Below are positions 3,339 to 47,493 of a stretch of 64,000 nt of DNA, piece after piece. The stretch spans positions 1-64,000 of the IMG/VR virus record IMGVR_UViG_3300010373_000042; one strand, 5' to 3'. This stretch comes from a virus. Within the stretch, counting starts at the first letter, position 1; each line of letters opens with the position of its first letter. Position numbers and translations under genes: made by a program. The notes under the pieces were generated by a model. That model worked only from the letters and a program-made list of their open reading frames with translations, did not search any database and was not told where the DNA came from.

Positions 3339-3874
3339 GCGACTGCTCCCGTAACGACCGTGGCAGTTCGCGGCTTCTCCAGCGGGCGAGGATCGGTAGT
3401 TTCCTCGAAATATTTACAAGCCTTCGCATAGTGCGGGACGCGGCCACCTTCCTGCCCGTGCATCAGCGACCGATATTTGGTGCAGAGGGAGTCGCGTAGA
3501 AGGCCGGATCCAGCCATATAACCGTCAGCCGCCCAGAAACGGCAACCGCGACAAGTCTTGTCAGCGGGCCCCGTAGAGGCCCAGAAGGCCATGCCAGGGA
3601 AGGTGTCCTTGCGTTTCTTTGCGAAGTCCATGTCGGGCTCAGTGAGGTGCTGAGAAATGCCGTCGTTTTCCATCTCGCCATTTTCCTTCCAGAAGTAGCG
3701 CTTGAGTGCAGAGAAACGCTTCTGCGTGAGGAACTGTTCGTAACCCTTGTCGATCAGCTTTTTGCTGCGCCGGGCCACCACCCATTTTGAGGTGCCGAGA
3801 TGAAGCGCGAGCCAATCAGCAAATTCGGCTGGGACCTCGGCCGTCTCAGGATAAGAACGCGCATCCCCACTCAT
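3335..3874 (-). CDS. phage protein with cysteine cluster, 179 aa
   Basis: The N-terminal half looks helix-turn-helix-like (ADWLALHLGTSKWVVARRSKKL). The C-terminal half contains CRGCRFW, LCTKY and HYAKACKYFEE, a four-cysteine pattern that could bind zinc. It is translationally coupled to recT. I do not recognise a named family; a role in recombination or replication is possible from context only. Confidence 0.72.
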   Translation of the reverse strand: MSGDARSYPETAEVPAEFADWLALHLGTSKWVVARRSKKLIDKGYEQFLTQKRFSALKRYFWKENGEMENDGISQHLTEPDMDFAKKRKDTFPGMAFWASTGPADKTCRGCRFWAADGYMAGSGLLRDSLCTKYRSLMHGQEGGRVPHYAKACKYFEETTDPRPLEKPRTATVVTGAVA

Positions 3875-4908
3875 GCCGACACCTCATCCGCTTGGGCGGC
3901 TACGGGCTGGTGACGTCGACGCAATGCCTGCTCGCATTCTTTCTTTGCGTCTTTCGGCATCGTCGACCAAACCGCTTTGAGGGCTTCGCTGCCTAGCTTC
4001 GCAGCTTCGGCCAGCCGCAAATCCCATTCGGCTGCGGTGGTGTAATCGTCGGCCGCTCCGGCGGGGGCGTCATGGGGCGAATGTGCCGGAGCGGCCGGTC
4101 TCACCGCGCTGGGTGATCGTGAAAGCAATTCGTCTGCACTGCGCTGGTCGTGATGGATCGGTGGAGCGTCGGAGAATTCGCCCTCTATCTGCAGGCCGCG
4201 CTGGGGATCGATCCATGCGCTCTTGCCGCGCTCCTCGACCGTCTCCTCCATCGCTGCGGCAAGATGGAAGCGCGGATCGGCGTTCAGCGGCATCGCTCGC
4301 GACAGGCGACGCTTCGCCGATTTAGCCGCCATAGCCGGGAAACCGATCATCATATCCATCCACGGACTATCGGACCGACTGCCGCCGGGCGACTTCTGTT
4401 TGATCGCCATGATGTCGTCGATGCCCAGCACCGAAACCAGCGCGGGCCGATGCAGGGATGAAGCGGTGGCCCAGGCAGCGAGGATCGGCCCACGATTGCC
4501 GAGCTTGGGCTTATGACGAACAAAGCCCTTGTCGCCGAGCTCGTAGTCGAACGCATCGCCCTCGCGCACGACTTCACCCTGAATGCTGAACCCCGATCGG
4601 GCGCCCAAGGTGTTCATTCCTTTGTAGCCGATCACGAGCTGCGCCTTACCCTTAAAGGGTATGAAATAGGCCTGGCCGGTCACGCCGTCGACTTCCAGCG
4701 CTAGGCATGCGGCCGACATCGACGCATTGAGGAGGCTTTGCCGATCAGCCTTGACGAGCAAATCGGGATTGCGTTCGACCGAGACCATGATCGACCGCAT
4801 CAGTCGCTCGACCGGGATGGCGCCAGCCAGTGCTTGCTCAAATCGCGGCGCGAGCGGCTTCAGCGTGTTTTCGAAAATAACAAGATCAGATGCCACCGAA
4901 CGCTCCAT
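3871..4908 (-). CDS. recT: RecT-family single-strand annealing protein
   Basis: The 345-aa protein has the RecT core: PVERLMRSIMVSVERNP near the N-terminus, then YFIPFKGKAQLVIGYKGM and DDIMAIKQKSPG. RecT binds single-stranded DNA and promotes annealing and strand invasion in phage recombination. It overlaps the YqaJ-type exonuclease gene upstream by 23 bases, the usual partner arrangement. The C-terminal third (after about residue 240) is low-complexity and alanine/proline rich, probably a flexible tail. Confidence 0.92.
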   Translation of the reverse strand: MERSVASDLVIFENTLKPLAPRFEQALAGAIPVERLMRSIMVSVERNPDLLVKADRQSLLNASMSAACLALEVDGVTGQAYFIPFKGKAQLVIGYKGMNTLGARSGFSIQGEVVREGDAFDYELGDKGFVRHKPKLGNRGPILAAWATASSLHRPALVSVLGIDDIMAIKQKSPGGSRSDSPWMDMMIGFPAMAAKSAKRRLSRAMPLNADPRFHLAAAMEETVEERGKSAWIDPQRGLQIEGEFSDAPPIHHDQRSADELLSRSPSAVRPAAPAHSPHDAPAGAADDYTTAAEWDLRLAEAAKLGSEALKAVWSTMPKDAKKECEQALRRRHQPVAAQADEVSA

Positions 4909-5827
4909 CGATTTGCTGCGGGATGTGCGACTTGATCGAGACCGTCGTGATCTCGCGCGCGGGACTGGCCTTGTAACGGCTGATGCCGACCTTGCGCGTC
5001 ACTCGGATGCCCTGCGGCAATTCGATGGAATCGGCATCTTTGAGAAGGCCGAGGAGTTTTGCCTTCGTACCCTCCTCGATCTTCTCGGCCGCAAGCCGCT
5101 GTACGCGCTGATACTCGGCATCAACAACCTGCTGGGCCAGCCTGGTGGCCTCGACCTCGCCGAACTTCTCGACCGCGTTGATGATCTCGCCGGTCGGCTT
5201 GGCGAAGATTTGCTTGAGCAGCGGCACTTCGACGGGCGAGCCAAACGGTTCCGGCTCGCGGCCGGCGAGGATGTCATCGAAAAACTGCTGCACCTCGGCC
5301 TCGAACGTCGCCCACAGATCGGGCATCGGCTTGCGCTGGAAATAGGTCATGTCGCCGCCGCACCACAGTGCGATCACACCCCACTCGAACGGCTTGACGC
5401 CGTTGCCGACGTACATCTGCTGCTGAAGCTGGATCTCGTGCTGGCGGGGAGGCGTTTTGCCGCCGTCCCATTCCTGCATGAGGATTTTGTAGTCAAAGCA
5501 GCATTTGGTTTCGAGCGCGCCAGGGCCGCGCTGAGGATCGTAAATGTCGGCGTCGCGGGAACAGCCAAGCAGTCCGCGGCGCATATACGCCTGTGATCCG
5601 TCAGGCTTGCGGTTGGTGGTAACCTCAAGATGAAGATCGGCCGCCGCCTGCTCCAATAGCAGCGGCTCCATTTTTGTGCCCCAGTCCAGACGGTTGTGAT
5701 CCGGGCCGGGCGCCTCGATGCCCTTGGCAAATCGCTGGAACAGCATCCACTTCGTCACGTAAGGCGAAACGCCGAGCAGGCCGGACATTTCGGTGGCGCT
5801 GATGGTCTGGCGCTTTGGGTCAGGCAT
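4886..5827 (-). CDS. YqaJ-type viral recombinase exonuclease
   Basis: It would supply single strands for RecT by degrading one strand of double-stranded ends. The PD-(D/E)XK core is visible: DWGTKMEPLLLEQ, SRDADIYDP, LETKCCFDYK and HEIQLQQQMYV. The open frame begins at a TTG at 5842, but the ATG at 5827 is preceded by AGAGGAAG and starts the natural MPDPKRQT N-terminus, giving 313 aa. The exonuclease and RecT pair is a complete Red-like recombination system. Confidence 0.88.
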   Translation of the reverse strand: MPDPKRQTISATEMSGLLGVSPYVTKWMLFQRFAKGIEAPGPDHNRLDWGTKMEPLLLEQAAADLHLEVTTNRKPDGSQAYMRRGLLGCSRDADIYDPQRGPGALETKCCFDYKILMQEWDGGKTPPRQHEIQLQQQMYVGNGVKPFEWGVIALWCGGDMTYFQRKPMPDLWATFEAEVQQFFDDILAGREPEPFGSPVEVPLLKQIFAKPTGEIINAVEKFGEVEATRLAQQVVDAEYQRVQRLAAEKIEEGTKAKLLGLLKDADSIELPQGIRVTRKVGISRYKASPAREITTVSIKSHIPQQIDGAFGGI

Positions 5828-6029
5828 GGACTTCCTCTGCAATTACGCGCGCATGCAGCCGATTGCGCCGCGCTAGTTCGTTGAAAAACACGTTGGCGGA
5901 CTGCCGCTCGATCTCGGCGCACGGATCGCAATACATCCGGCGCTTGGTCCGCTGGAAATACGCGAACAGCCGGTCGCACAGCTTGCAGACGGACTGCGCG
6001 GGGCGGGGAGGGTCAAAGCCGCGCTTCAT
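5820..6029 (-). CDS. small zinc-finger protein, 69 aa
   Basis: The pattern CKLCDRLFAYFQ followed by RRMYCDPCAEIE gives two C-x2-C knuckles about 18 residues apart. The rest is basic and helical. It overlaps the exonuclease start and the upstream micro-ORF. It is probably a nucleic-acid-binding accessory of the recombination operon; the function is inferred from context only. Confidence 0.7.
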   Translation of the reverse strand: MKRGFDPPRPAQSVCKLCDRLFAYFQRTKRRMYCDPCAEIERQSANVFFNELARRNRLHARVIAEEVHA

Positions 6030-6228: not shown

Positions 6229-6487
6229 CTGCGGCCTCCTTCGCTTCGATCGCGGCGAGGCGGCGCTTCGCATCATCGTGCAGCGCGCAGGCAACCTTCA
6301 TGTCGGCGTATTGGTCGATCAGCTTCGCGGCGTTGGCGAAGTTCGGCGTCAGCTTGACCAGCGCTGCGATGTCCTCGGCCGTGCTGAGCGGCCGCTCGAT
6401 CCGGTCGATGGGCGGGAAGTCGTGTTTGGCGTGATCGCGATAATGATCGGCGCGGAAGTCTTCGTCGGGGCGGGACCAACCCATCAC
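6215..6487 (-). CDS. hypothetical protein, 90 aa
   Basis: It overlaps the upstream gene by four bases and the micro-protein gene downstream. The N-terminus is rich in histidine and aspartate (DEDFRADHYRDHAKHDFPP), then helical, ending in an alanine/glutamate-rich tail. It begins MM, so the second ATG may be used. No family recognised. Confidence 0.7.
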   Translation of the reverse strand: MMGWSRPDEDFRADHYRDHAKHDFPPIDRIERPLSTAEDIAALVKLTPNFANAAKLIDQYADMKVACALHDDAKRRLAAIEAKEAADAQA

Positions 6488-6696
6488 GCGGCCCTCCGCA
6501 CTTTTACGGTGCGGACCGTTGCGGCGAACTCGATCGACGTGCCGTCATCACGGCCTACGCCGCTGGCGCCTTCGATTGTCGCCTTGATCCAGACGTCGAC
6601 CTTGCCGCCGGCCGCGATCTTGCGGGCCAGCGCTCGCCGGCCGCGCTTGACGTCCAGCAGCATGAAATCGGATTTGAAGGGTGCAGGGGTTGGCAT
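6484..6696 (-). CDS. first gene of the early leftward operon, hypothetical, 70 aa
   Basis: An open frame begins at 6723, but that lies in the promoter -10 element; the ATG at 6696 has GGAG six bases upstream and fits a transcription start near 6713. The protein is basic and beta-rich (FMLLDVKRGRRALARKI, VDVWIKATIEG). It is the first product made when the repressor leaves the operator at 6726. Function unknown. Confidence 0.72.
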   Translation of the reverse strand: MPTPAPFKSDFMLLDVKRGRRALARKIAAGGKVDVWIKATIEGASGVGRDDGTSIEFAATVRTVKVRRAA

Positions 6697-6719
6697 GTCG
6701 GTCTCCATTGCTGGAGCCA

Positions 6720-6748
6720 ACATAAAGTAGGAACATTCCTACTGTCAA
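6720..6748 (-). promoter_or_regulatory. sigma70-type promoter of the early leftward operon
   Basis: Read on the minus strand: TTGACA (-35, perfect), a 17-base spacer, then TTATGT (-10). The spacer is exactly filled by the palindromic operator at 6726-6743, so a bound repressor would exclude RNA polymerase. The predicted start is about 15 bases before the ATG at 6696. Confidence 0.75.
6726..6743. promoter_or_regulatory. operator OL1 (perfect palindrome)
   Basis: AGTAGGAACATTCCTACT: 8-bp perfect arms around CA. It is the best of five copies of the consensus AGTWGGAnnnnTCCWACT in the window. It sits inside the early leftward promoter. Confidence 0.8.
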
Positions 6749-6754
6749 CAGGAA

Positions 6755-6772
6755 AGTAGGAGAAATCCAACT
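6755..6772. promoter_or_regulatory. operator OL2
   Basis: AGTAGGAGAAATCCAACT, one mismatch between the arms. It lies 29 bp from OL1 start to start, upstream of the -35, suggesting cooperative binding of repressor dimers. Confidence 0.72.
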
Positions 6773-6815
6773 GTAGTAAGATTATACCTATTTGGCGGGT
6801 GGCTCGCCGAATTTC

Positions 6816-6932
6816 TCAATCCAGGCAATTCGCCCGAACTGTGTCAACGTGGCTGCCGATTCTGTGAAGCTGATATGCGATCACCAACAAGCACCCGAAG
6901 ATAGCGATCAGGATTATGTCGGTCCCGGACAC
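6816..6932 (-). CDS. single-pass membrane micro-protein downstream of the repressor, 38 aa
   Basis: It starts with GTG at 6932 just after the repressor stop, with GAGGG eight bases upstream. The N-terminal half is a membrane segment (DIILIAIFGCLLVIAY), followed by a short polar tail (RIGSHVDTVRANCLD). It is probably co-transcribed with the repressor and so may be made in the lysogen. A lysogenic-conversion or exclusion role is only a guess from position. Confidence 0.55.
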   Translation of the reverse strand: MSGTDIILIAIFGCLLVIAYQLHRIGSHVDTVRANCLD

Positions 6933-6933
6933 G

Positions 6934-7446
6934 TCATGCCCTCTTACGCTTTGCAGCCGGCTTAGGCTTCTCAGCTTGGACCGGTGGTCGCGTTAACTCT
7001 TCCGGGCTGTCAAGTCCCAGCGCGTGTGCAAACCCCATTGCATGCCAATCTGAGAGGGTTGGCAGGCCGAGCCAGGCTCGGACGGCCTCTACCGTCATCC
7101 CATCCATGCGCGCTGCCATTGCCTGTTCATCTAGTCCCCGGGCTTCCATATGCTCGGCAACGTAATAGTGGGGTTTGGCGCCTTTGTGGATAACTTCGAC
7201 CGGCCGGTTTTTGGGAATTCGAAGCGTTTCGGGATCCAGTCCCATGAATTGGCAGAAATCGTCTCTGAAATCCTCGTGCAAGGAGCTTTTGGCGCCCTTC
7301 ATGAAATCGACGAGGTACGTTCTGTCATAGGACGGAAATCCGGCCTTCCGCATTGCGGTAATCACGGACACCTTGCCCAGCGGCTTGGGCCGGTGGCTGG
7401 CTAAGGCGTGCTCGATCGTTCGTCTAACCTCGGCGGGCGTAGGCAT
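6934..7446 (-). CDS. phage repressor with two helix-turn-helix domains
   Basis: Starting at the ATG at 7446 the protein has 170 aa. Residues 25-75 (KVSVITAMRKAGF to DFCQFMGLD) and 100-145 (RGLDEQAMAARMDGMTVEAVRAWLG) both look like XRE-type helix-turn-helix folds; a lysine-rich tail ends it. There is no LexA/CI-type peptidase domain, so SOS self-cleavage is not expected. Three operators lie between it and the divergent gene at 7544, one of them touching its own start codon, which implies autoregulation. No Shine-Dalgarno sequence is visible, so the mRNA may be leaderless. Longer upstream readings cross the operators and are rejected. Confidence 0.82.
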   Translation of the reverse strand: MPTPAEVRRTIEHALASHRPKPLGKVSVITAMRKAGFPSYDRTYLVDFMKGAKSSLHEDFRDDFCQFMGLDPETLRIPKNRPVEVIHKGAKPHYYVAEHMEARGLDEQAMAARMDGMTVEAVRAWLGLPTLSDWHAMGFAHALGLDSPEELTRPPVQAEKPKPAAKRKRA

Positions 7447-7463
7447 GTTGGATTTATCCAACT
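7446..7463. promoter_or_regulatory. operator O3, overlapping the repressor start
   Basis: TGTTGGATTTATCCAACT, near-perfect match to the consensus AGTWGGAnnnnTCCWACT. The left end includes the repressor start codon, so binding here would shut off repressor expression. Confidence 0.72.
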
Positions 7464-7480
7464 TTCCATGCCTGTGAGCC

Positions 7481-7498
7481 AGTTGGACCTTTCCTACC
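7481..7498. promoter_or_regulatory. operator O2
   Basis: AGTTGGACCTTTCCTACC, consensus match with one end mismatch. It is 35 bp from O3 and 32 bp from O1 (start to start), about three helical turns each. Confidence 0.7.
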
Positions 7499-7506
7499 GA
7501 TTTTGC

Positions 7507-7535
7507 TTGAAAAGTAGGAAAACTCCCACTATGCT
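7507..7535 (+). promoter_or_regulatory. rightward sigma70-type promoter with operator O1 in its spacer
   Basis: TTGAAA at 7507-7512, a 17-base spacer, and TATGCT at 7530-7535. It would transcribe the Cro-like gene at 7544, whose ATG follows within ten bases, so this mRNA may be leaderless. The design is the same as the leftward promoter at 6720-6748. Confidence 0.7.
7513..7530. promoter_or_regulatory. operator O1
   Basis: AGTAGGAAAACTCCCACT, one mismatch between the arms; occupies the spacer of the rightward promoter. Confidence 0.7.
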
Positions 7536-7543
7536 TCGGCTCC

Positions 7544-7795
7544 ATGGAAACCGAACTGCGCTCCAACCTCATCGCTTGCGCCTCAGCATTTGCCGCCGCC
7601 CGCTCGCTGTCTCTTTCGACGGTAGGGCGCTTGGTAGCTAAGGACGGCCGCTTCTTCGACCGTCTTGACGACGGCTCGACCTTTACCGCGCGCAAATACG
7701 ATGAGGTGATCCGCTGGTTTTCCGATAGCTGGCCAGATGATGCCGTTTGGCCTCCGGAAGTTGTTCGCCCCGTAGCCGAAGAGGCGCGCGCGTGA
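7544..7795 (+). CDS. Cro-like small regulator, 83 aa
   Basis: It is divergent from the repressor and directly under the rightward promoter, the classic cro position. The N-terminal part (LIACASAFAAARSLSLSTVGRLVAKDGRFFDRL) looks like a helix-turn-helix, followed by TFTARKYDEVIRWFSDSWP. I know similar short proteins from Rhizobiales genomes, where they are unassigned. The Cro function is inferred from position and fold impression only. Confidence 0.72.
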   Translation: METELRSNLIACASAFAAARSLSLSTVGRLVAKDGRFFDRLDDGSTFTARKYDEVIRWFSDSWPDDAVWPPEVVRPVAEEARA

Positions 7796-8108: not shown

Positions 8109-8147
8109 CGCTTCCCCCGTTTCAACGCCGCGGTCTTGCGGTCTTTT

Positions 8148-8167
8148 TTTTGGGAACGCTCCCAAAA
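8148..8167. promoter_or_regulatory. perfect palindrome in a divergent intergenic region
   Basis: TTTTGGGAACGCTCCCAAAA: 8-bp arms around ACGC, between the leftward micro-operon (start 8108) and the rightward gene at 8187. No T-run follows the arms in a terminator position on either strand, so an operator for a second regulator is more likely. A TTGGGAGG direct half-site follows at 8171. Confidence 0.55.
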
Positions 8168-8603: not shown

Positions 8604-8900
8604 ATGACCGCTCTACCGAACCCCTGGCTTTCCGCTTCTGCAGCGGTGGTGATGCCCGTTGCAGATCAGGCCGCCGCGTCTTCGTCCCAGCCCCCTGGTA
8701 ACGCGGCGGCCAACCATTTCGAATCCCCCATGACGATGGAGGACATCAAGGCGCGACCGGCGGTGCCCCAAACCTCCGTCGGCGCGACCGAATTCCCGCG
8801 CGGCTTTGATCCTGAGCGATTTTTCGAGGCGATCGAGCCGATGCCGTTGTTCCTGCAGGCGCCCCGCGAAGCGCTCGAGATTCTGGCGAGGTGGGCGTGA
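8604..8900 (+). CDS. hypothetical protein, 98 aa
   Basis: A TTG reading begins at 8592, but I choose the ATG at 8604. The first half is low-complexity (alanine, serine, proline); the second half contains FDPERFFEAIEPMPLFLQAPREALEILARWA. The stop overlaps the next start (TGATG). No family recognised. Confidence 0.65.
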   Translation: MTALPNPWLSASAAVVMPVADQAAASSSQPPGNAAANHFESPMTMEDIKARPAVPQTSVGATEFPRGFDPERFFEAIEPMPLFLQAPREALEILARWA

Positions 8901-9436
8901 TGCCAGCACCTCCCGGAAACAACATGCGAAATGCCAATGCCACCGTCGGCCAGCAATGGACGCCAGAGCTTGACGAGGCGCTGAAGAAATACCTGGCCGC
9001 TAATCTGTCATTCGCCGATGTGGCGGGGGAGATCAACCGCGAATTTGGGACTTCCTATAGCCGGTGTGCGGCAACCGGACGCGCGCATCGCTTGGGATTG
9101 CGGTCGAGCGTGCCGAAGTCGGAGGGATCGAAGCGGCAGGCCCGATATCATGGGGGAGAGCGGCGAAAGCCCTCAAAGCCAAAGCCACCCGCGCCGCCGG
9201 TCGTTTTCAAATGCGAGCCTTCGACCGGTCTGCGTGTCGCCGACGTCGTGCCGCGAAATATCTCGCTGCTCGATCTGGAGCCCGGCGAGTGCCGATGGCC
9301 CTACGGCGATTCCAATTTCACATTTTGCGGCAACCCTACCTTGGACGGCTGCAGCTATTGCCACCAGCATTTTGCGCTGTCCGTCGGTGGTGGGACGGAA
9401 TCGGAGCGGCGGGCACATCAGGGAGTGGCGGCATGA
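8900..9436 (+). CDS. GcrA-family cell-cycle regulator-like protein
   Basis: GcrA is an alphaproteobacterial transcription factor that binds sigma70 and methylated promoters. Here the N-terminus ([27 protein letters not shown] to RAHRLGL) matches the GcrA helix-turn-helix, and the C-terminus ([23 protein letters not shown]) matches the conserved tryptophan and cysteine/histidine region. A proline/lysine-rich linker joins them. The ATG at 8900 overlaps the upstream stop and has GAGGTG before it. A phage copy could redirect host transcription; it may also respond to the phage-encoded adenine methylation, which is inference. Confidence 0.85.
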
Positions 9437-9750
9437 GCAAGATCGGTCACAATAGCGACGCGGCACCGGCGACGAAGTTTGCCAAGGACCAGCTCAAGGC
9501 CATCATCGAGCGCATCGAGCGGCTGGAAGAAGAAAAGAAAACCATCAGCGACGATATCCGCGACGTCTACGCCGAGGCCAAGGGCAATGGTTTCGACGTC
9601 AAGGCGCTGCGCACCATCATTCGGATGCGCAAGCAGGACGAAAACGAGCGCGCCGAGCAGGAGACGATCCTGGAGACCTACATGCACGCCCTCGGCATGT
9701 TGGCTGATACGCCTCTGGGGCAGGCGGCGGTCGCGAGGGCGGTCGCGTGA
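9433..9750 (+). CDS. GapR/DUF2312 nucleoid-associated protein
   Basis: The 105-aa protein matches Gap[50 protein letters not shown] and YMHALGM. GapR clamps overtwisted AT-rich DNA ahead of replication and transcription in alphaproteobacteria. The start at 9433 overlaps the gcrA-like stop, so the two are co-translated. It may assist phage DNA replication; that is inferred from the family. Confidence 0.9.
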
Positions 9751-12284: not shown

Positions 12285-12818
12285 CTAGGCTACCGCAACG
12301 GCCTTTTTGCTAACTGGCACGCCCAAGGCTTTACAGAGGACGCTGGTGAGGTTTGGTTCAACCCTTGGTCCGATACCGGCCGCCTCGTAAATCGCGCCAA
12401 ACGTGGCCGCAGCCAAGATGGAGGGCGATTCAGCCGGATCGGTTGCCTTGATAAAGCGAACCAGCTCCCGTTTCATGCCCTCGCGATAGACCGGCTCGCG
12501 GCCAAGACTGCCCATCAAACGGTAATCTAGTGCGAAACGCCGACACAACCAAGAAATTGCATTGGCGGTATTTGATTGCTCCCGAATTGCCACAATATCC
12601 CGTTCCAGCACCAGCGCCACAACGGCTGCGACCAATTCGGTGCGGTCGGCGAAATAGCGATAGATCAGGCCTTTCGCGATCTCGGCGCGATCGGCGACCA
12701 TGTCCGTGGTGAGGCTGTCCATTCCAACCTTGGCAATGACGTCGATCGCGGCCGCAATGATAACCGCGCGCTTGGCCTCGAGCTTGGCCAACACCTTTTC
12801 CGTCTTGCGATATGCCAT
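12285..12818 (-). CDS. TetR/AcrR-family transcriptional regulator
   Basis: The N-terminal 60 residues are a clear TetR DNA-binding domain: RAVIIAAAIDVIAKVGMDSLTTDMVADRAEIAKGLIYRYFADRTELVAAV. The C-terminal ligand domain is short and diverged; the whole protein is 177 aa, slightly under the usual size. GAGAGG lies eight bases before the start. TetR proteins are uncommon in phages; it may control the lysogen or a host gene. No target operator was identified. Confidence 0.88.
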   Translation of the reverse strand: MAYRKTEKVLAKLEAKRAVIIAAAIDVIAKVGMDSLTTDMVADRAEIAKGLIYRYFADRTELVAAVVALVLERDIVAIREQSNTANAISWLCRRFALDYRLMGSLGREPVYREGMKRELVRFIKATDPAESPSILAAATFGAIYEAAGIGPRVEPNLTSVLCKALGVPVSKKAVAVA

Positions 12819-14404: not shown

Positions 14405-14756
14405 GCCGCGCTGTATCGTTCTCTCAAGAGAGAGATACGAGTGCGGTGCGCTACGACGCTTTCGCCCGCGCGATCAACAGCATAAGGGATGACACCCTCC
14501 ATTTCCCAGGGGAGCCGTCTACCCGGGCAGGGACCTTCCACCGGGCCGCCGTGAATTTTTATTCTCCCGCGCCCGTCTCCGATCCACCCGTTTTTAGAGG
14601 GACCCGCTCTCAGATATTTGGGTCCCATTTTCGGAAAGGGTGTCGTCCCGTGTGGCAAGGGAACCCGATTTTTCCACAGAGGGACCCATGATTTGGGGGT
14701 GCGTTCACTGCATTTGTAGTGTATTGTAATCGGTGATTTTGCAGCGGAGAGTTTTT
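14405..14756. other. non-coding stretch between small terminase and recombinase
   Basis: No gene is supported here. It holds an imperfect stem at 14413-14438 (GTATC ... GATAC with CTCTC/GAGAG inside), which may end terminase transcription though no T-run follows, and three copies of a GGGACCC element: direct at 14596 and 14678 (AGAGGGACCC) and inverted at 14620 (GGGTCCC). The position before a serine recombinase makes it a candidate for a crossover or packaging-related site. Confidence 0.4.
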
Positions 14757-15416
14757 ATGATCAAGGCAGTCGCCTATATGCGGACGTCGAGCGCGACGAA
14801 TGTCGGCGCGGACAAGGACAGCGAGAAGCGACAACGGGCGGCGATCGCGGGCTATGCCGATCAGGCCGGCTATTCGATTTCTGTGGATGATTGGTTTTAC
14901 GATGCGGCGGTGAAGGGCGCGGACCCGGTTACGTCGCGGCCCGGGTTCAAGGCGATGCTGGATCGGATTGCGGGAAACGGGGTTCGCACGATCATCGTCG
15001 AAAGTCCGGACCGGTTTGCGCGCGATCTCACGGTTCAACTGGCCGGCCACGACTATCTCAAGCGGCTGGGCGTCGATCTAATCCCAGCGACGGCACCAGA
15101 TTTTTTTCTGGAGGACACACCGACGGCTGTTTTGGTGAGACAGGTACTTGGGGCGATAGCCCAGTTCGAAAAGGCCAGCCTCGTAGCGAAGTTGCGGGCC
15201 GCGCGCGACCGCAAGGAGCAACTGACCGGAAAGTGCTCTGGTCGCAAGTCCTATGCTGAGCGGGACCCGGCAATGGTGACAAAGGCGCGGTCGTTGCAGG
15301 AAGGGCGATCGTTGCGGAAGATCGCCGCCGAACTCGCGGCCGCCGGCTATGTGACGCCTACGGGGCGGCCGTATGCGGCGATGGCGGTCAGGTCGATGCT
15401 AGGGACAAAGCAATGA
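14757..15416 (+). CDS. serine recombinase (resolvase/invertase type)
   Basis: Starting at the ATG at 14757 (GGAG upstream) the protein has 219 aa. The catalytic N-terminus KAVAYMRTSSATNVG holds the nucleophilic serine (10 or 11); SRPGFKAMLDRI and ESPDRFARDL contain the conserved arginines. A small C-terminal helix-turn-helix (LRKIAAELAAAGYVTPTGRPYAAMAVRSML) follows. It lacks the large C-terminal domains of phage integrases such as phiC31, so it could be an integrase of the small type, an invertase or a resolvase. Confidence 0.88.
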   Translation: MIKAVAYMRTSSATNVGADKDSEKRQRAAIAGYADQAGYSISVDDWFYDAAVKGADPVTSRPGFKAMLDRIAGNGVRTIIVESPDRFARDLTVQLAGHDYLKRLGVDLIPATAPDFFLEDTPTAVLVRQVLGAIAQFEKASLVAKLRAARDRKEQLTGKCSGRKSYAERDPAMVTKARSLQEGRSLRKIAAELAAAGYVTPTGRPYAAMAVRSMLGTKQ

Positions 15417-39727: not shown

Positions 39728-39897
39728 TCGTCATCATCCTTCTCGGAAAAATCATGATGGAAGCCGACAGCGTGGATGTCGCTTGGCTTGGTGCGCAGCC
39801 GAGGCGTCAACGGGCCATCCTCCGGAATCCGAGGAGGGTTGATGCGCCGCAGATAGTCGCGCCGAATCGGACGCGGGCTCACTGGTCTATCACCCAT
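39724..39897 (-). CDS. hypothetical protein, 57 aa
   Basis: It starts inside the end of the DegT gene (overlap of 19 bases) and ends overlapping the HAD start. The sequence is basic then acidic (RRDYLRRINPPRIPEDG, FSEKDDDE). No motif. It fits between its coupled neighbours, which supports translation. Confidence 0.55.
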   Translation of the reverse strand: MGDRPVSPRPIRRDYLRRINPPRIPEDGPLTPRLRTKPSDIHAVGFHHDFSEKDDDE

Positions 39898-40997
39898 TTT
39901 TCCGCCGCCCGTTTGAACGCATCGCCAATCTGCTTGATCTGCTCGCCAGTCGGCGACCTCGCGCAGTTTTCGAAATACAGCAGCCTCCGGTCCTGCAAAT
40001 CCTCCGCCACCGGGCACGGCCGCGCGAATCGCGAAAATGCCGACATGCGATACAACGGATCGACGTAGCCTTCCTCGATCGGCACGCCGTCCTCGCGCAA
40101 CGCCGCGCATAACTCGGCCCGGTTCTTCTCCACCAGGAACGGGATGCAATAGTACGAATGCGTGCAGCCCTCCCGCACCACCGGCGGCCGCAATCCCGGA
40201 ATATCGCCGATCGCCGCAATGATCGCCTCGGCTTGCTCGACACGCTCGGCCACGATCTGCTTGCCGCGCCGCAGTTGCGTCAGCGCAATCGCCGCGCAGA
40301 CTTCCGGCATTCGGAGATTGAGGCCTATCGGTCCTCCGGTGTTTTCCCCGTGATTGATGAACGCGCGCATCTTCGCGGCTAGATCATCGTCGTCCGTCGT
40401 GCAGATGCCGCCTTCGCCGCACTGGATCGGCTTGTGGATGTTGAGCGACCAGACGCCGATATGTCCGATCGTTCCGGCGTATTTGCCATGCTCCATCGCG
40501 AACGGAGATTGCGCGTTGTCCTCAATCAATATACCGCGCAGAACCTCAGCGGTTCTCCTCGCTTCTTTGAGAGTTGCCGGGTGCCCGAACAGGTTAGTGA
40601 TGATCGAAGCTTTGACGTTCCCGTGATGCGGCGGACATTCCTGCAAGGAGAAATTCTGGTCCTCGATATCGCCGAAGATGACCTTGGCACCCAGAAACGC
40701 GGGGGCAGCGGCGGTCGCGCTCATGGTGAAAGGTGTCGTAATGACCTTATCGGTTGGATCATCTCCTATACCCGCAGCCGCACACGCCGCCAGCAGGCCC
40801 GACGTCGCACTATTGCACGCCACCGCATGCTTCACCCCGAATGTCTCGCACCACGCATCCTCCAGCGCGCAGACATTCCTGCCGCCGCGCTCCTTGCCGG
40901 CCAGATACCCGGACAGCGGGCCGTTTACCATGGCAGTGATCGCGGCCATGGTCTCGACCTTGCCGATGGTGTTGAATGGCTTGATCGTCCCGATCAT
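39879..40997 (-). CDS. DegT/DnrJ/EryC1-family aminotransferase
   Basis: From the ATG at 40997 (GGGAG eight bases upstream) it has 372 aa. The PLP lysine is K189 in WSLNIHKPIQCGEGG; ACNSATSGL, TPFTMSATAAAPAFLGA and IEDNAQS are family motifs. Enzymes of this family (PseC, LegC, SpsC) transfer an amino group to a 4-keto-6-deoxy sugar. It pairs with the dehydratase at 43114 and the GNAT next to it in a nonulosonic acid route. A much longer upstream reading (to 41477) crosses the GNAT gene in another frame and is rejected. Confidence 0.92.
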   Translation of the reverse strand: MIGTIKPFNTIGKVETMAAITAMVNGPLSGYLAGKERGGRNVCALEDAWCETFGVKHAVACNSATSGLLAACAAAGIGDDPTDKVITTPFTMSATAAAPAFLGAKVIFGDIEDQNFSLQECPPHHGNVKASIITNLFGHPATLKEARRTAEVLRGILIEDNAQSPFAMEHGKYAGTIGHIGVWSLNIHKPIQCGEGGICTTDDDDLAAKMRAFINHGENTGGPIGLNLRMPEVCAAIALTQLRRGKQIVAERVEQAEAIIAAIGDIPGLRPPVVREGCTHSYYCIPFLVEKNRAELCAALREDGVPIEEGYVDPLYRMSAFSRFARPCPVAEDLQDRRLLYFENCARSPTGEQIKQIGDAFKRAAEKWVIDQ

Positions 40998-41449
40998 ATC
41001 TGCGGCTCCCGTCGGTATTGCACGAAACCATCCTTCTGCCCGACCAGATCGAAACCGCACTGGGCGAAGATATTGCGCGAGCGATAATTGTCGCGTCTGA
41101 TGTCTGCGTTGATGGTGTACTCGGTCATGTAGCAGCACGCCTGCGCGAGTACCGTTCCGGCCAGCCCCTTGCCGCGGTGCGCCGGTGCCATTGTGATCGA
41201 CGCCTCGAATGTCATGGTGTCGTTCTTCTCGGCATCGAAGCGAACCACGCCGAGTTTTCCTTCGTAATTCTCGGCGATCAGGACGATATGCTCCGGGTAT
41301 CCGTGCATGACGTTGAACCGCATCCATTGGTCGTGATCCTCGCGCGGCACGGCGGCGGTCGAGCGGAAACACGCCAGCGTCACTGGATCGTTGCGCCACG
41401 CGAACAGGTCGTCGGCATCCTTGGGCATGGCGGGGCGAAGGGATATCAT
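40994..41449 (-). CDS. GNAT acetyltransferase, PseH/SpsD-like context
   Basis: The ATG at 41449 overlaps the upstream stop (ATGA), giving 151 aa. ISLRPAMPKDADDLFAWRNDPVTL, LGVVRFDAEKNDTMTFEASITMAPAHRGKGLAGTVL (acetyl-CoA loop RGKGLA) and SRNIFAQCGFDLVG are typical of GNATs acting on sugar amines. Directly upstream of the DegT gene, it probably acetylates the amine that DegT installs. Confidence 0.85.
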   Translation of the reverse strand: MISLRPAMPKDADDLFAWRNDPVTLACFRSTAAVPREDHDQWMRFNVMHGYPEHIVLIAENYEGKLGVVRFDAEKNDTMTFEASITMAPAHRGKGLAGTVLAQACCYMTEYTINADIRRDNYRSRNIFAQCGFDLVGQKDGFVQYRREPQI

Positions 41450-41640
41450 GGCAACCGTTTGCATGCTGGCGGCACATGATAATACGTGCTCAACGGCATT
41501 CCGGCCGGCCATATAGCGACCGAGACGATAAGTTCCGAGGGTGCAGCATCATCGTCGGCAGGACATCTAGCGTGGTGCATTCCCGCGCCAGTACCGACAA
41601 TCAGGCAACCAATTATCCAATAGCCCATCAGGTATTTCAT
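41446..41640 (-). CDS. small secreted or membrane protein, 64 aa
   Basis: A strong GAGGAG precedes the ATG at 41640. MKYLMGYWIIGCLIVGTGAGM is a signal or membrane segment; the rest has a few cysteines (ARCPADD, PPACKRLP). Coupled to the deacetylase upstream and GNAT downstream. Function unknown. Confidence 0.62.
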   Translation of the reverse strand: MKYLMGYWIIGCLIVGTGAGMHHARCPADDDAAPSELIVSVAIWPAGMPLSTYYHVPPACKRLP

Positions 41641-42287
41641 ATTACGCTCCTCAGCGTCATGAAGGCTTCCGCATAGTGCACACCGCACGCGGCCCCTCGC
41701 AAAATCGCCAGCGCCTCGACCGCTTCAAACGAACGAGCATGGGGCGCATTTCGCATTTCATCGCCGTATCGGTGAAGCGCGGCAACCTTCCGGTCCAGTT
41801 CGCTCATCAGAATGACAAAATGATCGGGTGCAAACCCGCTTCCCCACTCGGTCGACGACAGCACCTCGAACGCATAGATCGCGCGAACGGTCGAGCCGGG
41901 CAGTGGCCGCAACGCTGTCATGGCCGCCTGATGCACGATGCGATGGTCGTTGTTCAAGTCTCCGGCGTGGTGTGTGTAGACGATGGTCGGTTTGATCTCG
42001 GCGATGTTCTTCTCGATGGCCTGCGTGATTTCTAGCAGAGGCAACGTATCGAGCTTCTGGTCCGCGTAGTCGAGGAAGATCGGAGGCTGCGTGCCGAGAA
42101 CCTTGCTGGCCTCGAAAGCCGCGATGTTGCGGTTCGGCTTGGCTGCCATCACGCGCGCCGTCTCGCCGTCGGCCACGAACAGCACATGCACGGTATCGCC
42201 ATCGGCCACATGCCGCGCAATCGTGCCGCCGCAACCGAGCGCTTCGTCGTCGGGGTGGGCTGCGATGACGAGGACGCGGTCGGTCAA
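41637..42287 (-). CDS. PIG-L-type sugar N-deacetylase
   Basis: The 216-aa protein has the zinc-binding AHPDDE motif at residues 10-15 and HHAGDLNNDHRIVHQ later, the LmbE/PIG-L signature. Such enzymes remove N-acetyl groups from GlcNAc-type sugars. In the cassette it may free an amine for another acyl group (see ATP-grasp). Overlaps both neighbours by four bases. Confidence 0.92.
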   Translation of the reverse strand: MTDRVLVIAAHPDDEALGCGGTIARHVADGDTVHVLFVADGETARVMAAKPNRNIAAFEASKVLGTQPPIFLDYADQKLDTLPLLEITQAIEKNIAEIKPTIVYTHHAGDLNNDHRIVHQAAMTALRPLPGSTVRAIYAFEVLSSTEWGSGFAPDHFVILMSELDRKVAALHRYGDEMRNAPHARSFEAVEALAILRGAACGVHYAEAFMTLRSVI

Positions 42288-43123
42288 AGCCTCTCCTCCA
42301 CATAATTCCGCCGGATCACCAGTCCGTCCTCGATCTTGTCAGGCGCCACGAATGGTTTGCCTTCCCAAAGCTTGATTGTCGCGTCGAGAATGTCGAAGCC
42401 GGCCATCACAGTGAAAATGCACGAACCGGACAGTCGCGGATTCAACTCGATGATGTAGAGCTTGCCGGTCGCGCGCTCGCGGATGATCTGGATGTTGATC
42501 GGACCGCGGAATGTGAATTTGCTGACCACGAGTAGCGCGAGGTTGATGATCTCGGCATCCATTACGATCTTGCCGATGATCGAAACGCCGTTCGCCTGAA
42601 TGCGAAGGCGAGGGACCGCGAACAGGAATGCGCCATCCATGCCGGTCAGGACGTCGACGGTGTATTCGTCGCCTTCTATTCTCTGTTGCGCCAAATATCC
42701 ATCAGGTAACGGGAAGATGCCCCGGCCGCCACGACCGCGCTCGGGCTTGAGAACGGGATTCGGTACGCCGGGAGCGACAGGAATTCCGGCCAGTTCCATC
42801 GCACGTTGTTGGGCAATCTTGCTGGTGAAGATTTCCACGGTTTCACTCGGCGAACAAAGCACAGGCCTTGTGAAGCCGGAAATTAGCGTGATCTCCTCGT
42901 CCAAAAACGGAAGGTATAGGTCAACCGAATTATCGATGATGAATTCTCCAAATCGCATCAGATAAAGGCTGCCAACATGCGGCGACTGCAGAAACTTGTC
43001 ACAGCCGCTCGAAGCGCCATACGCCGAGCAATCATGCCCGATGACGTAATGCCCGAGCGATTGCAAATGCCGGATGATCGACGGCGCAACGGCTGATCCG
43101 GCTGCCGACATCATCACGCGCAT
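42284..43123 (-). CDS. ATP-grasp carboxylate-amine ligase
   Basis: The 279-aa protein looks like carbamoyl-phosphate-synthase-type ATP-grasp enzymes: N-terminal Rossmann part (RVMMSAAGSAVAPSIIRHLQSLGHYVIGHD), lysine/glycine loop (LKPERGRGGRGI), LAQQRIEGDEYTVDVLTG and the metal site IIELNPRLSGS. It could attach an amino acid or other carboxylate to a sugar amine. GGGAGG precedes the start. Substrate unknown. Confidence 0.88.
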   Translation of the reverse strand: MRVMMSAAGSAVAPSIIRHLQSLGHYVIGHDCSAYGASSGCDKFLQSPHVGSLYLMRFGEFIIDNSVDLYLPFLDEEITLISGFTRPVLCSPSETVEIFTSKIAQQRAMELAGIPVAPGVPNPVLKPERGRGGRGIFPLPDGYLAQQRIEGDEYTVDVLTGMDGAFLFAVPRLRIQANGVSIIGKIVMDAEIINLALLVVSKFTFRGPINIQIIRERATGKLYIIELNPRLSGSCIFTVMAGFDILDATIKLWEGKPFVAPDKIEDGLVIRRNYVEERL

Positions 43124-43971
43124 GACAATGCCTCCCGCAATTCGTCGACCGACATGCGGCGGGCGTGTTCGCTGGAATTTCCTTCCGCCATGCTCTCGTG
43201 ACGCTTCTCGAATGCCGGCAGCCCGCGCACGTCCATCTTGGCGCCCATGGCCTCGGCCAGATCGCCGAGCCGGTAGGCGGGGAGGGTGGGGATAGCGATC
43301 TCGCCGCCCTTCATGGTATCGGCGGTGCGCAATACCAGATCGACAGCTTCATCCATCGTCATGAAGAACCGTGTGCAGTCAGGATCAGTGACGGGCACCA
43401 CATCGGAGGTTTCGAGTATTCTGCGCCAAGTTGGGACGACCGAGCCGGTGGAGCACCAAACGTTGCCGTACCGGACAGCAGCGAAACGCGGACCGTTATT
43501 TCCTCGCGTGTTGTTGGCGGCAAGGAAAAGCGATTCCGCAAATGCCTTGCTGGTCCCGTAGGGGCTAACCGGCTCGAAAGCCTTGTCAGACGACAGGGCA
43601 ACCACCCGGTCAACACCAGCATCGGTCGCGGCCTCGATCACGTTCGCCGCGCCGTCGATGTTGGTCTTTTTCACTTCAAGCGGATTGTATGCGCCGACCT
43701 CTATTCGCTTCAGTGCGGCGGCATGGATCACGACCTCGATATCTTCCATCGCCCGGCGTAACCTGTCGCGGTCCCGGACATCTCCGATGAAGTAGCGCAT
43801 GCGCCAGTCTGCGGCGGGTAGCACAGCCAGATCGCGCGCCAGTTCGGCCTGCCGATGTTCATTGCGGGAATAGACCACAATGCGCAACGGCCCTTCGTTC
43901 ATCCCCAGCAGACGCCGCACGAACGCCGTGCCGAAAAATCCCGAACCGCCGGTGATGAGGACCGATTTCAA
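43114..43971 (-). CDS. CapD/PseB-like UDP-sugar 4,6-dehydratase
   Basis: The start is a TTG overlapping the upstream stop, with GAGGG before it. GGSGFFG (8-14) binds NAD; GDVRDRDRLRRAM, HAAALKRIEVGAYNPLEVKKTNIDGAANVI and the YGTSK catalytic pair (Y138, K142) follow the PseB/CapD pattern. It would start the pathway from UDP-GlcNAc. At 285 aa it is shorter than PseB (about 330). Confidence 0.88.
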   Translation of the reverse strand: MKSVLITGGSGFFGTAFVRRLLGMNEGPLRIVVYSRNEHRQAELARDLAVLPAADWRMRYFIGDVRDRDRLRRAMEDIEVVIHAAALKRIEVGAYNPLEVKKTNIDGAANVIEAATDAGVDRVVALSSDKAFEPVSPYGTSKAFAESLFLAANNTRGNNGPRFAAVRYGNVWCSTGSVVPTWRRILETSDVVPVTDPDCTRFFMTMDEAVDLVLRTADTMKGGEIAIPTLPAYRLGDLAEAMGAKMDVRGLPAFEKRHESMAEGNSSEHARRMSVDELREALSCA

Positions 43972-45986
43972 GATGCCCTCACCATCGGTCCGACGCTCGC
44001 GCCGTTCAATCGATCGGCAATGTCACCCTTGTCCATCGCTGCCCGCAAAACGCCGAGCGCGTGATCGTAGGACTTCAGTATACGTTTGATCTCCGACGGA
44101 CCATGCGCAGCGCAAAGATTGTGACTCGCCGTGATCAGCGTTCCCGATGCCACCATTTCCTTGCGGAATAGCGCGGCAATCTGGTCGTCACGGAATTTCA
44201 GCCGCTTGAACGGTGCCGCGCCGAACAGCCGGATTGCATCGCCGGTGCCATGCTTGAACATCAGCGCCTCGGCCTGCATCGCGAGATCATCGCCCACCTG
44301 CCAGAGCTTCGGTATCACCTCCTCTCGCTCCAGCTTCTTGATGGTGGCGATGCCAGCGGCAAGCGACAGCGTTTCGCCGAACATGGTGCCGCTGTAGAAA
44401 ATGTTATCCGGTGGCTCGAACCGCTTCATGATGTCGCGGCGGCCGACGATGGCCGACAGCGGCATACCGTTCGCCATCGCCTTGCCGAACGTCGCAAGGT
44501 CTGGTGTGACACCCCACAGCTTCTGCGCCCCGCCGAGCGAGAAACGAAAGCCAGTGATGACTTCGTCGAAGATCAGGAGGGTTCCGGTTTCATCACAGAC
44601 ATTCCGCAGAAGTTGGAGATATTCCGGATCAGCCTCGGGCTCGACGATAGCCGCGGCGAACTGGTAGTTTTTGGCGCGCTTCGGGATGCTGGCGATATGT
44701 TCCGCGCTACCGTAGGAAACCCGCGTGGTCAGATGCCGAACATCCTCCGGCACACCCAGGTTGCGTTCGACCGACCAATCCTGCCAGCCATGATAGCCGC
44801 CGCACATCAGGATTCGATCACGGCCCGTATGCGCGCGCGCAAGTCGGATCGCTGCCGACGTAACGTCGGTGCCGGTCTTGCCGAACCGAACCATTTCGGC
44901 GCAGGGAATCAGTCGGCAGAGCGTTTCCGCGAGCTCCGATTCAAGTTCTGTGGCGAGAGAGAATGAAACCCCAGAACAAAGCTGTCGTCGGACGGCCGCG
45001 TCAACGTCAGGGTCGCGGTAGCCGAGAATGTTTGGGAGCAGTGCGGACACGAGATCGACGTATTCTTGACCGTCAACGTCGTAAGCGATGCCGCCTTGTC
45101 CATGCGAAATGAACAGAGGGCTTGGTTGCGGATACTGGAGATGACTTTTGCTGAACGTTTGCGCGGCGAGCGGGATGACTTCGCGCGCTTTTTCGAACTG
45201 CGCTTGAGACCTTTGATAGCTACGCGCATAGATCGGCTCCTCGGCCAGCGCTTCGACGTAGCGCTCGTTACAGGGATGATGCGAATTGAGTTGCCGCAGC
45301 GTCGGGTGTTCGTCCAACAGCCCGAGCATATCGAGTTGGGACGGAGGGCCCTTGTCCCACGGCCACAGCGACGCAATGGCTTTGCAGAAATCATAATCGT
45401 CGGCGGTGTCGAGTACCCAGCGCTCGTCCTGCAAGCCGGGAATCGGATTGATGACCGTCTCGGCCGGAAAGCGTGACCGATTGCGCTCGATCCAGGTGCA
45501 GACACCGTCGCGGTCGAGCGGGCGTGTGGCTTCCGCATCGGCTGCCGCAAGCGCCTCGTAGGTGAACGCCTGCACGTCGAGACCGTCGGGATAGGTGCGG
45601 GGCGATACGTTGGTGACAAACGCCGCACCGGTCTGCTTCTGCAAACGAACAACGGCGCCGATGACCTGAGGGTCCAGAAAGGGGCAATCTCCGGTCAACC
45701 TCAAAAGTACATCGGCGCCGCTAGCGTTGGCGCATCCGACGAAGCGCGACAGCACATCCGTTTCGGACCCTCGCCAACAAAAAAAGCCGTGGTCATCGCA
45801 GAAATCCGCGATCACGTCGTCCGCCAGCAGCGTGGACGTGGCGATCCACACCTCATCAACGCCCGGCGCGGCCGCGCAGGCTCGGTGGCACCACTCCAAC
45901 ACAGGGTGGTGACCGAGCGGCATCAGGACCTTGCCGGGCAAGCGCGTTGATCCGATACGGGCCTGGATGACGGAGACGACTTTCAT
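43968..45986 (-). CDS. fusion of SpsF-type cytidylyltransferase and class III (HemL-like) aminotransferase
   Basis: From the ATG at 45986 it has 672 aa. Residues 1-245 are a nucleotidyltransferase (VVSVIQARIGSTRLPGKVLMPLG, LLRLTGDCPFLDP), as in SpsF/NeuA/PseF enzymes that make CMP-sugars. Residues 265-672 are a glutamate-1-semialdehyde-aminomutase-like PLP enzyme (PLFISHGQGGIAYDVDGQEY, CGGYHGWQDW, LLIFDEVITGFR, FGKAMANGMP with lysine near 502). The fusion puts sugar activation and an amino transfer in one chain. Start overlaps the oxidoreductase stop. Confidence 0.9.
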   Translation of the reverse strand: MKVVSVIQARIGSTRLPGKVLMPLGHHPVLEWCHRACAAAPGVDEVWIATSTLLADDVIADFCDDHGFFCWRGSETDVLSRFVGCANASGADVLLRLTGDCPFLDPQVIGAVVRLQKQTGAAFVTNVSPRTYPDGLDVQAFTYEALAAADAEATRPLDRDGVCTWIERNRSRFPAETVINPIPGLQDERWVLDTADDYDFCKAIASLWPWDKGPPSQLDMLGLLDEHPTLRQLNSHHPCNERYVEALAEEPIYARSYQRSQAQFEKAREVIPLAAQTFSKSHLQYPQPSPLFISHGQGGIAYDVDGQEYVDLVSALLPNILGYRDPDVDAAVRRQLCSGVSFSLATELESELAETLCRLIPCAEMVRFGKTGTDVTSAAIRLARAHTGRDRILMCGGYHGWQDWSVERNLGVPEDVRHLTTRVSYGSAEHIASIPKRAKNYQFAAAIVEPEADPEYLQLLRNVCDETGTLLIFDEVITGFRFSLGGAQKLWGVTPDLATFGKAMANGMPLSAIVGRRDIMKRFEPPDNIFYSGTMFGETLSLAAGIATIKKLEREEVIPKLWQVGDDLAMQAEALMFKHGTGDAIRLFGAAPFKRLKFRDDQIAALFRKEMVASGTLITASHNLCAAHGPSEIKRILKSYDHALGVLRAAMDKGDIADRLNGASVGPMVRAS

Positions 45987-46900
45987 TGACCACCCCACCC
46001 CTTAATCTCGCGATGCTCGTAAGTCTGATCCAGACCGGCCATCTTCCGTACGTCCAGCAACACCCGCAGCGTTGCCAATCCGTCACGCGCGCTCGCTCCC
46101 GGCGTGATCTTGCCGTCGATCCGGTCGATGAACGCTTCCATCTCCGCGCGGTAATCCTTGTCGTAATCACCCGGCATGTGATTGGAGGTCGTTCCGAGCG
46201 ACAGCAGACGCTTCGGCAAATCGACGCCAATATTTCGTTCCTCCCCAGCGATCCAGAACTCGCGAATTTCATTCGGGGTGATGAAGTCGAGATGAAATCG
46301 CGACCGTGCGCCGCTGTCATGCTCCAGCACGAAGTCGGCGATTATGTCGGTCATTTCACCGAGGTTCATGCAGACGTTCGCACTGATGGCCTTCGCGGGC
46401 CCGAGCAAGTGCAGCGCTAGATCCACCTCATGCGAGCCGGTATTCAGGATCACACCGTCGCTGACGTACGGCGGTTTTGCCGTCCGGGTCGCACAGATAA
46501 ACGACGCCCACAGCGGGTTCCCAATATGCCCTGCGACGATCCATTCCTTTGCCTGCTGCACGCACGGATGCAGGCGCAGATTGTTTCCCATCATAACGAT
46601 CAGGTTTTTGTTGGCGGCCGATTCCAGAATCGCCGGCAGCGCTCCGACCGCGATGGAAATCGGCTTCTCGACCATCACATGCTTTCCGCGCTCGACCGCA
46701 GCGCGGACGCCGCTTTCATGGAACGGCGACGGCGTGGCAATCACCGCGGCATCGCACCAGTCGTAAAGTTGGTGCTCAAACCTGAAGTCTGGCTTTCCGA
46801 TAATGATGGGATCGTAGACCTTTACGTCATGACCGAGCTCCCGCGCATTGGCTGCATGCCGCTGCCCAATCGAGCCATGGCCGACGATGCCGATCTTCAT
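45983..46900 (-). CDS. Gfo/Idh/MocA-family oxidoreductase
   Basis: The ATG at 46900 overlaps the methyltransferase stop and gives 305 aa. MKIGIVGHGSIGQRHAANA is the NAD(P)-binding site; VIATPSPFHESGVRAAVERGKHVMVEKPIS contains the catalytic EKP. The C-terminal domain (GVILNTGSHEVDLALHLLG) is normal. It may oxidise or reduce a sugar ring position in the cassette pathway, like PtmA-type proteins; substrate unknown. Confidence 0.9.
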   Translation of the reverse strand: MKIGIVGHGSIGQRHAANARELGHDVKVYDPIIIGKPDFRFEHQLYDWCDAAVIATPSPFHESGVRAAVERGKHVMVEKPISIAVGALPAILESAANKNLIVMMGNNLRLHPCVQQAKEWIVAGHIGNPLWASFICATRTAKPPYVSDGVILNTGSHEVDLALHLLGPAKAISANVCMNLGEMTDIIADFVLEHDSGARSRFHLDFITPNEIREFWIAGEERNIGVDLPKRLLSLGTTSNHMPGDYDKDYRAEMEAFIDRIDGKITPGASARDGLATLRVLLDVRKMAGLDQTYEHREIKGWGGQ

Positions 46901-47493
46901 GGCCGTACCTCGATCGCATCGGCAGGCCGTTTCTTCAGCACCGTTATCATCTCCTCGTCGCTCGGATATTGGCGTGCGACAATCACGTAGAGAGGGCTGC
47001 TCAGCCACATCTGTGCAAAATCGAAATGGTAGGCCAGTACATCGTCGCGGTGCTTATACCTGCGAGCAAAGGTGAATGGCGGCGCGAAGTCGTGAACGAC
47101 AAGATGTCCGCCGGTCATCAGTACGCGATCGGTTTCCGCCGCGATCTTCAGCCAGTCGGCGGGGTCGCATAGATACAATTCGAAGCCGTGGATCACCAGA
47201 TCGAATAATCCGTCCCGCACAGGCAGTGCGTCCGCCGTCGCCTGATACGTCGGGACGCGCGCTTTCTGGCAGGCATTCATGCTCGGCTCGATGCCGATCA
47301 CGTCGCAGCCGTATCGTGTTTGCAGCTTCTCCAGCCGCCATCCGTTCGCGCTGCCGATCTCCAAAACGGACGTTGGCAGCAGGCTGCAGGAATTTATCGC
47401 CTCCGAAACCGGATCGCTCTGTCCCAGGTTGTCGCGGTTGCGGCCGAACCACGCGTCGGCTTCCGACTGCATCATGATCTCGGACTGCTTCAT
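46897..47493 (-). CDS. class I SAM-dependent methyltransferase
   Basis: From the ATG at 47493 it has 198 aa. VLEIGSANGWRLEKLQ (43-58) binds SAM, followed by GIEPSMNACQKA and LFDLVIHGFELYLC. It resembles small-molecule O- or N-methyltransferases of glycan clusters. Overlaps both neighbours. Could methylate the finished sugar. Confidence 0.88.
   Translation of the reverse strand: MKQSEIMMQSEADAWFGRNRDNLGQSDPVSEAINSCSLLPTSVLEIGSANGWRLEKLQTRYGCDVIGIEPSMNACQKARVPTYQATADALPVRDGLFDLVIHGFELYLCDPADWLKIAAETDRVLMTGGHLVVHDFAPPFTFARRYKHRDDVLAYHFDFAQMWLSSPLYVIVARQYPSDEEMITVLKKRPADAIEVRP

Follow-up and report, generated by a model that had tools for sequence, protein, structure and literature searches.

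A probable lambda-plan lysis-lysogeny switch in a temperate phage of alphaproteobacteria, with a repressor lacking an S24 peptidase domain

An immunity region found in an IMG/VR virus record (IMGVR_UViG_3300010373_000042, 71,572 bases), of which the first 64 kb (positions 1-64,000) are referred to as the window, is very probably a lysis-lysogeny switch on the lambda plan, belonging to a temperate phage of alphaproteobacteria, with a layout that points to repressor binding and autoregulation. The elements follow the order OL/PL, repressor gene, OR/PR and Cro-position gene, with both promoters pointing outward as in a lambda-type immunity region, and the switch is common to about 100 sequenced relatives. 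A preliminary description had regarded the region as a compact lambda-like switch, and this is well supported by the recurrence of the gene order, promoters and operators in many independent phages. Such a switch is already known in kind; what is notable here is its wide spread, together with the variable C-terminal half of the repressor. The features of the region are as follows.

3871..4908, minus strand: RecT annealing protein, PL operon (Pfam and PHROG)
4886..5842, minus strand: YqaJ/RecE-like exonuclease, PL operon (Pfam and PHROG)
6484..6696, minus strand: first PL gene, about 70 aa, start probably the ATG at 6696; no Pfam or PHROG match
6703..6716, minus strand: hairpin CTCCA-GCAA-TGGAG at the 5' end of the predicted PL mRNA, its 3' arm being the Shine-Dalgarno GGAG of the first gene
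6720..6748, minus strand: promoter PL, TTGACA (6748-6743), 17-bp spacer, TTATGT (6725-6720)
6726..6743, no strand: operator OL1, palindrome in the PL spacer
6755..6772, no strand: operator OL2, 29 bp from OL1
6934..7446, minus strand: repressor gene, 170 aa, ATG at 7446; N-terminal HTH domain (residues 1-80), flexible linker (82-90), predicted second HTH-like domain (94-151) and basic tail
7446..7463, no strand: operator OR3, overlapping the repressor start codon and the predicted PRM -10
7453..7481, minus strand: predicted weak promoter PRM, TGGCTC (7481-7476), 17 bp, GATAAA (7458-7453), start near the A of the ATG at 7446
7481..7498, no strand: operator OR2, centered at -43.5 of the predicted PRM
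7507..7535, plus strand: promoter PR, TTGAAA (7507-7512), 17-bp spacer, TATGCT (7530-7535)
7513..7530, no strand: operator OR1, palindrome in the PR spacer
7544..7795, plus strand: Cro-position gene, 83 aa, of phrog_7669; opens the PR operon here and in relatives
8127..8150, plus strand: terminator-like site downstream of the Cro-position gene, a consensus match only (3 found against 3.2 expected in shuffles)

All five of the 18-bp palindromes AGTWGGAnnnnTCCWACT that had been described were recovered at their positions, two as exact matches to the consensus (6726 and 6755) and three with one mismatch each (7446, 7481 and 7513). Sites with 0-1 mismatches, of which the window holds five, never appeared in 300 dinucleotide shuffles of the window. 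When the full record (71,572 bases) was searched for further copies, only the same five were returned at up to 2 mismatches, all of them in the immunity region, rather than many unrelated copies elsewhere in the genome. One further operator-like site at 6775-6792, with 3 mismatches, was weak and within chance for the window. Both promoters do carry an operator as their spacer, as had been claimed, in that the 18-bp operator fills the 17-bp spacer and overlaps one hexamer base. This arrangement is classical rather than unusual, since OR1 and OL1 of lambda sit in the PR and PL spacers. Between the end of the PR -10 and the ATG at 7544 there are 8 nt, and the PR mRNA is likely leaderless or near-leaderless; with the predicted PRM, whose -35 is weak, both regulators are probably read from near-leaderless mRNAs.

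The repressor gave no significant match to Pfam, PHROG or PDB sequences, and direct searches of INPHARED phages, IMG/VR and GTDB genomes found no relatives of it; a Pfam LigA match (E 0.007) fell below the cut-off and was taken as chance. That the protein has no autoprotease domain was borne out, as neither Pfam nor an iterated S24 profile detected S24 in it, and no S24 peptidase was found anywhere in the record. The AlphaFold2 model (mean pLDDT 78.9) consists of two separate five-helix units joined by a disordered linker, so that the two HTH domains of the preliminary description stand as a structure prediction and not as a sequence-family match. The view that the repressor type cannot be matched holds for the C-terminal domain, whose half of the protein has no relative among all collected repressors, but not for the N-terminal one: a profile of the CI N-terminal domains of relatives had the window repressor as its sole match among 941 window ORFs (E 7.8e-6, full sequence). 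The homology is distant, with 22-29% identity to the nearest forms and a longer HTH turn, and the N-terminal HTH is a divergent relative of the CI of Agrobacterium phage Rivra; the window repressor thus belongs to a recognizable group. The best structural match of the modeled N domain was the TP901-1 CI NTD (Z 8.2), followed by 434 Cro and P22 c2 (Z about 6), while the second HTH-like domain (pLDDT 72-84 in the model) was hardly probed by the structure comparison. We also considered a longer repressor starting inside the Cro-position gene. In the window and the nearest relatives no stop interrupts this frame across OR, but it is closed in L153, L078 and L010 and is therefore probably a by-product of high-GC antisense.

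The Cro-position protein matched the phrog_7669 profile (E 3.4e-22 over residues 3-82), a family whose function is not annotated and for which an HTH is predicted. Its predicted four-helix HTH fold (mean pLDDT 83.7) resembled XRE-type structures with a middling score (Z up to 5.9). From the layout we infer the following mechanism. In the lysogen, the 170-aa repressor would bind the palindromes, probably in dimeric form so that each half site receives one N-terminal HTH, and at OL1 and OR1 it would cover the -35/-10 spacer and so block RNA polymerase at PL and PR. OR2 adjoins the -35 of the weak leftward PRM, which would read the repressor from its start codon, and repressor on OR2 could therefore sustain its own synthesis; OR3 lies over the -10 and start of PRM, which could thus be shut off by repressor in excess or, once infection has occurred, by the Cro-position protein. 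In the lytic state, PL would deliver the recombination genes, and PR the Cro-position gene followed by those for GcrA, GapR and replication.

Relatives were gathered via the phrog_7669 gene and comprised five close viral contigs, Agrobacterium phage Rivra with six more phages, the best 80 of 196 viral relatives, and 56 genome loci; prophage-like copies were present in named genomes, among them Ancylobacter oerskovii and Chelatococcus species. Recognizable promoters stood just upstream of the phrog_7669 start in 96 of 109 loci, most often with 6-8 nt from the -10 to the ATG, implying a leaderless or near-leaderless mRNA. The best palindrome was usually centered 18-25 nt before this ATG and was better than in shuffled or control stretches. 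The half site differs between phages (AGTAGGA, AGTCGGA, AGTGGGA, TGCGGTA and others), with its position kept. In 56 of 84 loci, OR held extra operator copies set at constant distances, and OL held a pair of them in 40 of 84; the corresponding figure for a control stretch was 5 of 84. The 29-bp OL spacing of the window recurs in relatives. Further, OL1 had a TTG in register upstream in 30 of 33 loci; operator similarity had been the sole criterion for choosing the OL sites. In 96 loci, the stretch preceding the repressor ATG showed a conserved -10-like element in OR3 and a weak -35-like element beside OR2 and carried no information in between, as would fit a promoter whose transcript begins at the repressor start codon. 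Ten phage records scanned whole contained 2-5 operator sites each, and none for a control pattern.

Scanning IMG/VR with the promoter-operator pattern alone yielded 56 loci, with a phrog_7669-type gene directly downstream in 28. About a dozen of the 28 others are explained by a repeated unrelated sequence: an identical TTGTCCGGTTGGATCAGTCCAACTAT was found in about a dozen viral contigs without phrog_7669 (L022, L027, L035, L041, L045, L051, L054, L058, L061, L069 and L070), and is another promoter-operator-like element, unrelated to the phrog_7669 family.

In each close relative the divergent gene is the repressor. The iterated S24 profile matched 86 of 109 non-redundant repressors; among the 23 without a match, about 16 shorter proteins, those of the window and L092 included, lack S24, their C-terminal half being absent or different, and the remainder are diverged long proteins or doubtful gene calls. 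The 195-aa repressor of L092 (1829-2413, minus strand), which lacks S24 and has a clear second HTH_3 domain, is a second two-HTH case in this switch. The Cro-position proteins nearest to that of the window (68-73%) are those of the contigs L005-L009 and L079, which also share its five-site layout, with the operator AGTCGGAnnnnTCCGACT; these contigs differ from the window in that their repressors, where the locus covers the gene, are single HTH domains of 76-79 aa. Rivra shares a homologous Cro-position protein (55%), as do its phrog_7669 relatives, and the repressor N domain, and carries operators AGTGGGAnnnnTCCCACT in OL and OR, whereas its CI is an HTH joined to an S24 peptidase and a CII-like gene is present.

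The single-domain repressors of L005-L009 and L079 bear on how the window repressor might engage its sites. It might sit on a palindrome as a monomer, one of its two HTH domains per half site, the second replacing dimerization in the manner of Cluster A mycobacteriophages; the two HTH-like units on a flexible linker in our model would suit this, and such a repressor, with two DNA-binding domains and no autoprotease, exists in TipsytheTRex (PMC9283540). However, that protein binds as a monomer to asymmetric 13-mers spread over more than 20 places in the genome (PMC9283540), whereas the window has five near-perfect palindromes in one region. The two domains of the window repressor are also not detectably similar, and the relatives with one HTH domain keep the same palindromes, so that two HTHs per chain are not needed. 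We regard monomeric binding as improbable and prefer a dimer bound through its N-terminal HTH domains.

Distances between operators correlated with those between Cro-position proteins and with those between repressor N domains, exceeding all 500 permutations in both cases; this supports binding but does not prove it, because neighboring parts may share descent. The partial correlation with the operator reached 0.54 for the Cro-position protein and was lower, at 0.17, for the repressor. This closer tracking by the Cro-position protein would be expected if it alone used the sites and the divergent 170-aa gene encoded another regulator acting elsewhere. Such an assignment seems very improbable to us, as the 170-aa gene occupies the CI place of relatives with clear S24 repressors, the N domain of its product is homologous to their CI N domains, and three operators bracket its start. 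We therefore retain the 170-aa protein as the putative repressor acting at these operators.

Lambda, P22 and 434 share a plan of PL-OL-repressor-OR-PR with three OR sites and recombination genes on PL. The window resembles lambda in this order, in its three OR sites, in the placement of OL1 and OR1 in promoter spacers, in a weak repressor promoter with OR2 just upstream, in an HTH protein encoded first on PR and in recombination genes on PL. It differs from lambda in that the repressor lacks the S24 autoprotease, two clear OL sites are present instead of three, the Cro-position gene is probably near-leaderless, and the operator and proteins are unrelated in sequence. By analogy, the best precedent for an S24-less repressor appears to be lactococcal TP901-1, to which the system is parallel. 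TP901-1 has a peptidase-free CI with the antirepressor MOR, and its sister phages combine the same N domain and operators with a RecA-cleavable C-terminal domain instead (PMC7250872). Besides the missing peptidase domain, the two repressors have the similar N-domain fold noted above, but TP901-1 has its own OR, OL, OD and OM sites in another layout, and the C-terminus of its CI is a multimerization domain, whereas that of the window repressor is a predicted second HTH-like domain.

Since S24 is absent from both the repressor and the record, induction by RecA-stimulated self-cleavage is unlikely, and it may reasonably be supposed, as the preliminary description did, that induction follows some route other than CI cleavage. 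With a confidence close to even, we consider that the S24-less repressor would most likely be removed by an antirepressor or other partner, possibly via the second HTH-like domain. No antirepressor was recognized: ANT and Bro-N domains were absent in the ten records, and alphaproteobacterial LexA-type boxes were not clearly above chance. These negative results, together with the lack of S24, would also agree with a phage that is poorly or not inducible by DNA damage and loses its repressor only through chance fluctuation. We hold that outcome to be unlikely, though not markedly so, as small antirepressors such as Tum, Coi and Mor, which to our knowledge share no signature, would escape a domain search, and the record may be incomplete.

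Taken together, these data incline us slightly toward the view that phages of alphaproteobacteria carry a widespread, undescribed immunity module. Its fixed parts would be the operator layout, the phrog_7669 Cro-position protein and near-leaderless divergent transcripts, while the C-terminal half of the repressor would be exchanged between an S24 peptidase, nothing and a second HTH domain, so that related phages would differ in DNA-damage inducibility; a hairpin hiding the Shine-Dalgarno sequence at the PL mRNA start would be a further shared control. Because this half is exchanged in nature, related phages offer a way to test how repressor domain and inducibility are linked. The so far unannotated phrog_7669, a family found beside phage repressors in many alphaproteobacteria, gains a likely function. 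Moreover, a simple rule, TTGAC-operator-TAT before a phrog_7669 gene, gives the operator of each phage and thereby predicted immunity groups. Its use lies in the fact that operators of prophages of this sort have gone unnoticed: a search of phiLM21-like prophages for lambda or 16-3 operator sequences gave none (PMC12429752), phiLM21 itself being a possible member of the phrog_7669 family.

The PL-leader hairpin of the window had a folding energy of -10.1 kcal/mol (z -2.6). Among 38 loci, with leaders chosen by a Shine-Dalgarno filter, the energy was -9.95 kcal/mol against -5.09 kcal/mol in shuffles, and the mean shuffle rank of Shine-Dalgarno pairing was 0.24 against 0.5 expected (standard error 0.047). 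As the leaders were filtered in this way and compensatory changes left uncounted, we treat the hairpin as a lead only; it might hold back translation, shield the mRNA or affect RNA polymerase.

The neighboring genes provided several further observations. Besides the exonuclease and RecT, the leftward PL operon carries DNA methylases, and a tyrosine integrase lies on the same strand at 68.7-69.2 kb of the record; a small serine recombinase (PF00239) is encoded in addition at 14733-15416 (plus strand). In the PR operon, the 83-aa gene is followed by genes for a GcrA-family protein, a GapR-like protein, a RusA-like resolvase and a replication initiator. The GcrA-family cell-cycle regulator homologue (8891-9436, plus strand; PF07750, E 1.1e-23), also found in L005, L006 and L020, may act together with the phage DNA methylases on methylated promoters. 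The frame of the GapR-like DNA-binding protein (9064-9750, plus strand; PF10073, E 2.2e-35) probably has its true start well inside. At 12285-12818 (minus strand) we found a TetR-type regulator (PF00440, E 2.7e-14), which is unusual for a phage early region. Finally, a leftward cluster among the structural genes (39879-47008, minus strand) encodes two aminotransferase-like proteins and a nucleotide-sugar epimerase-like protein, and perhaps serves sugar modification.
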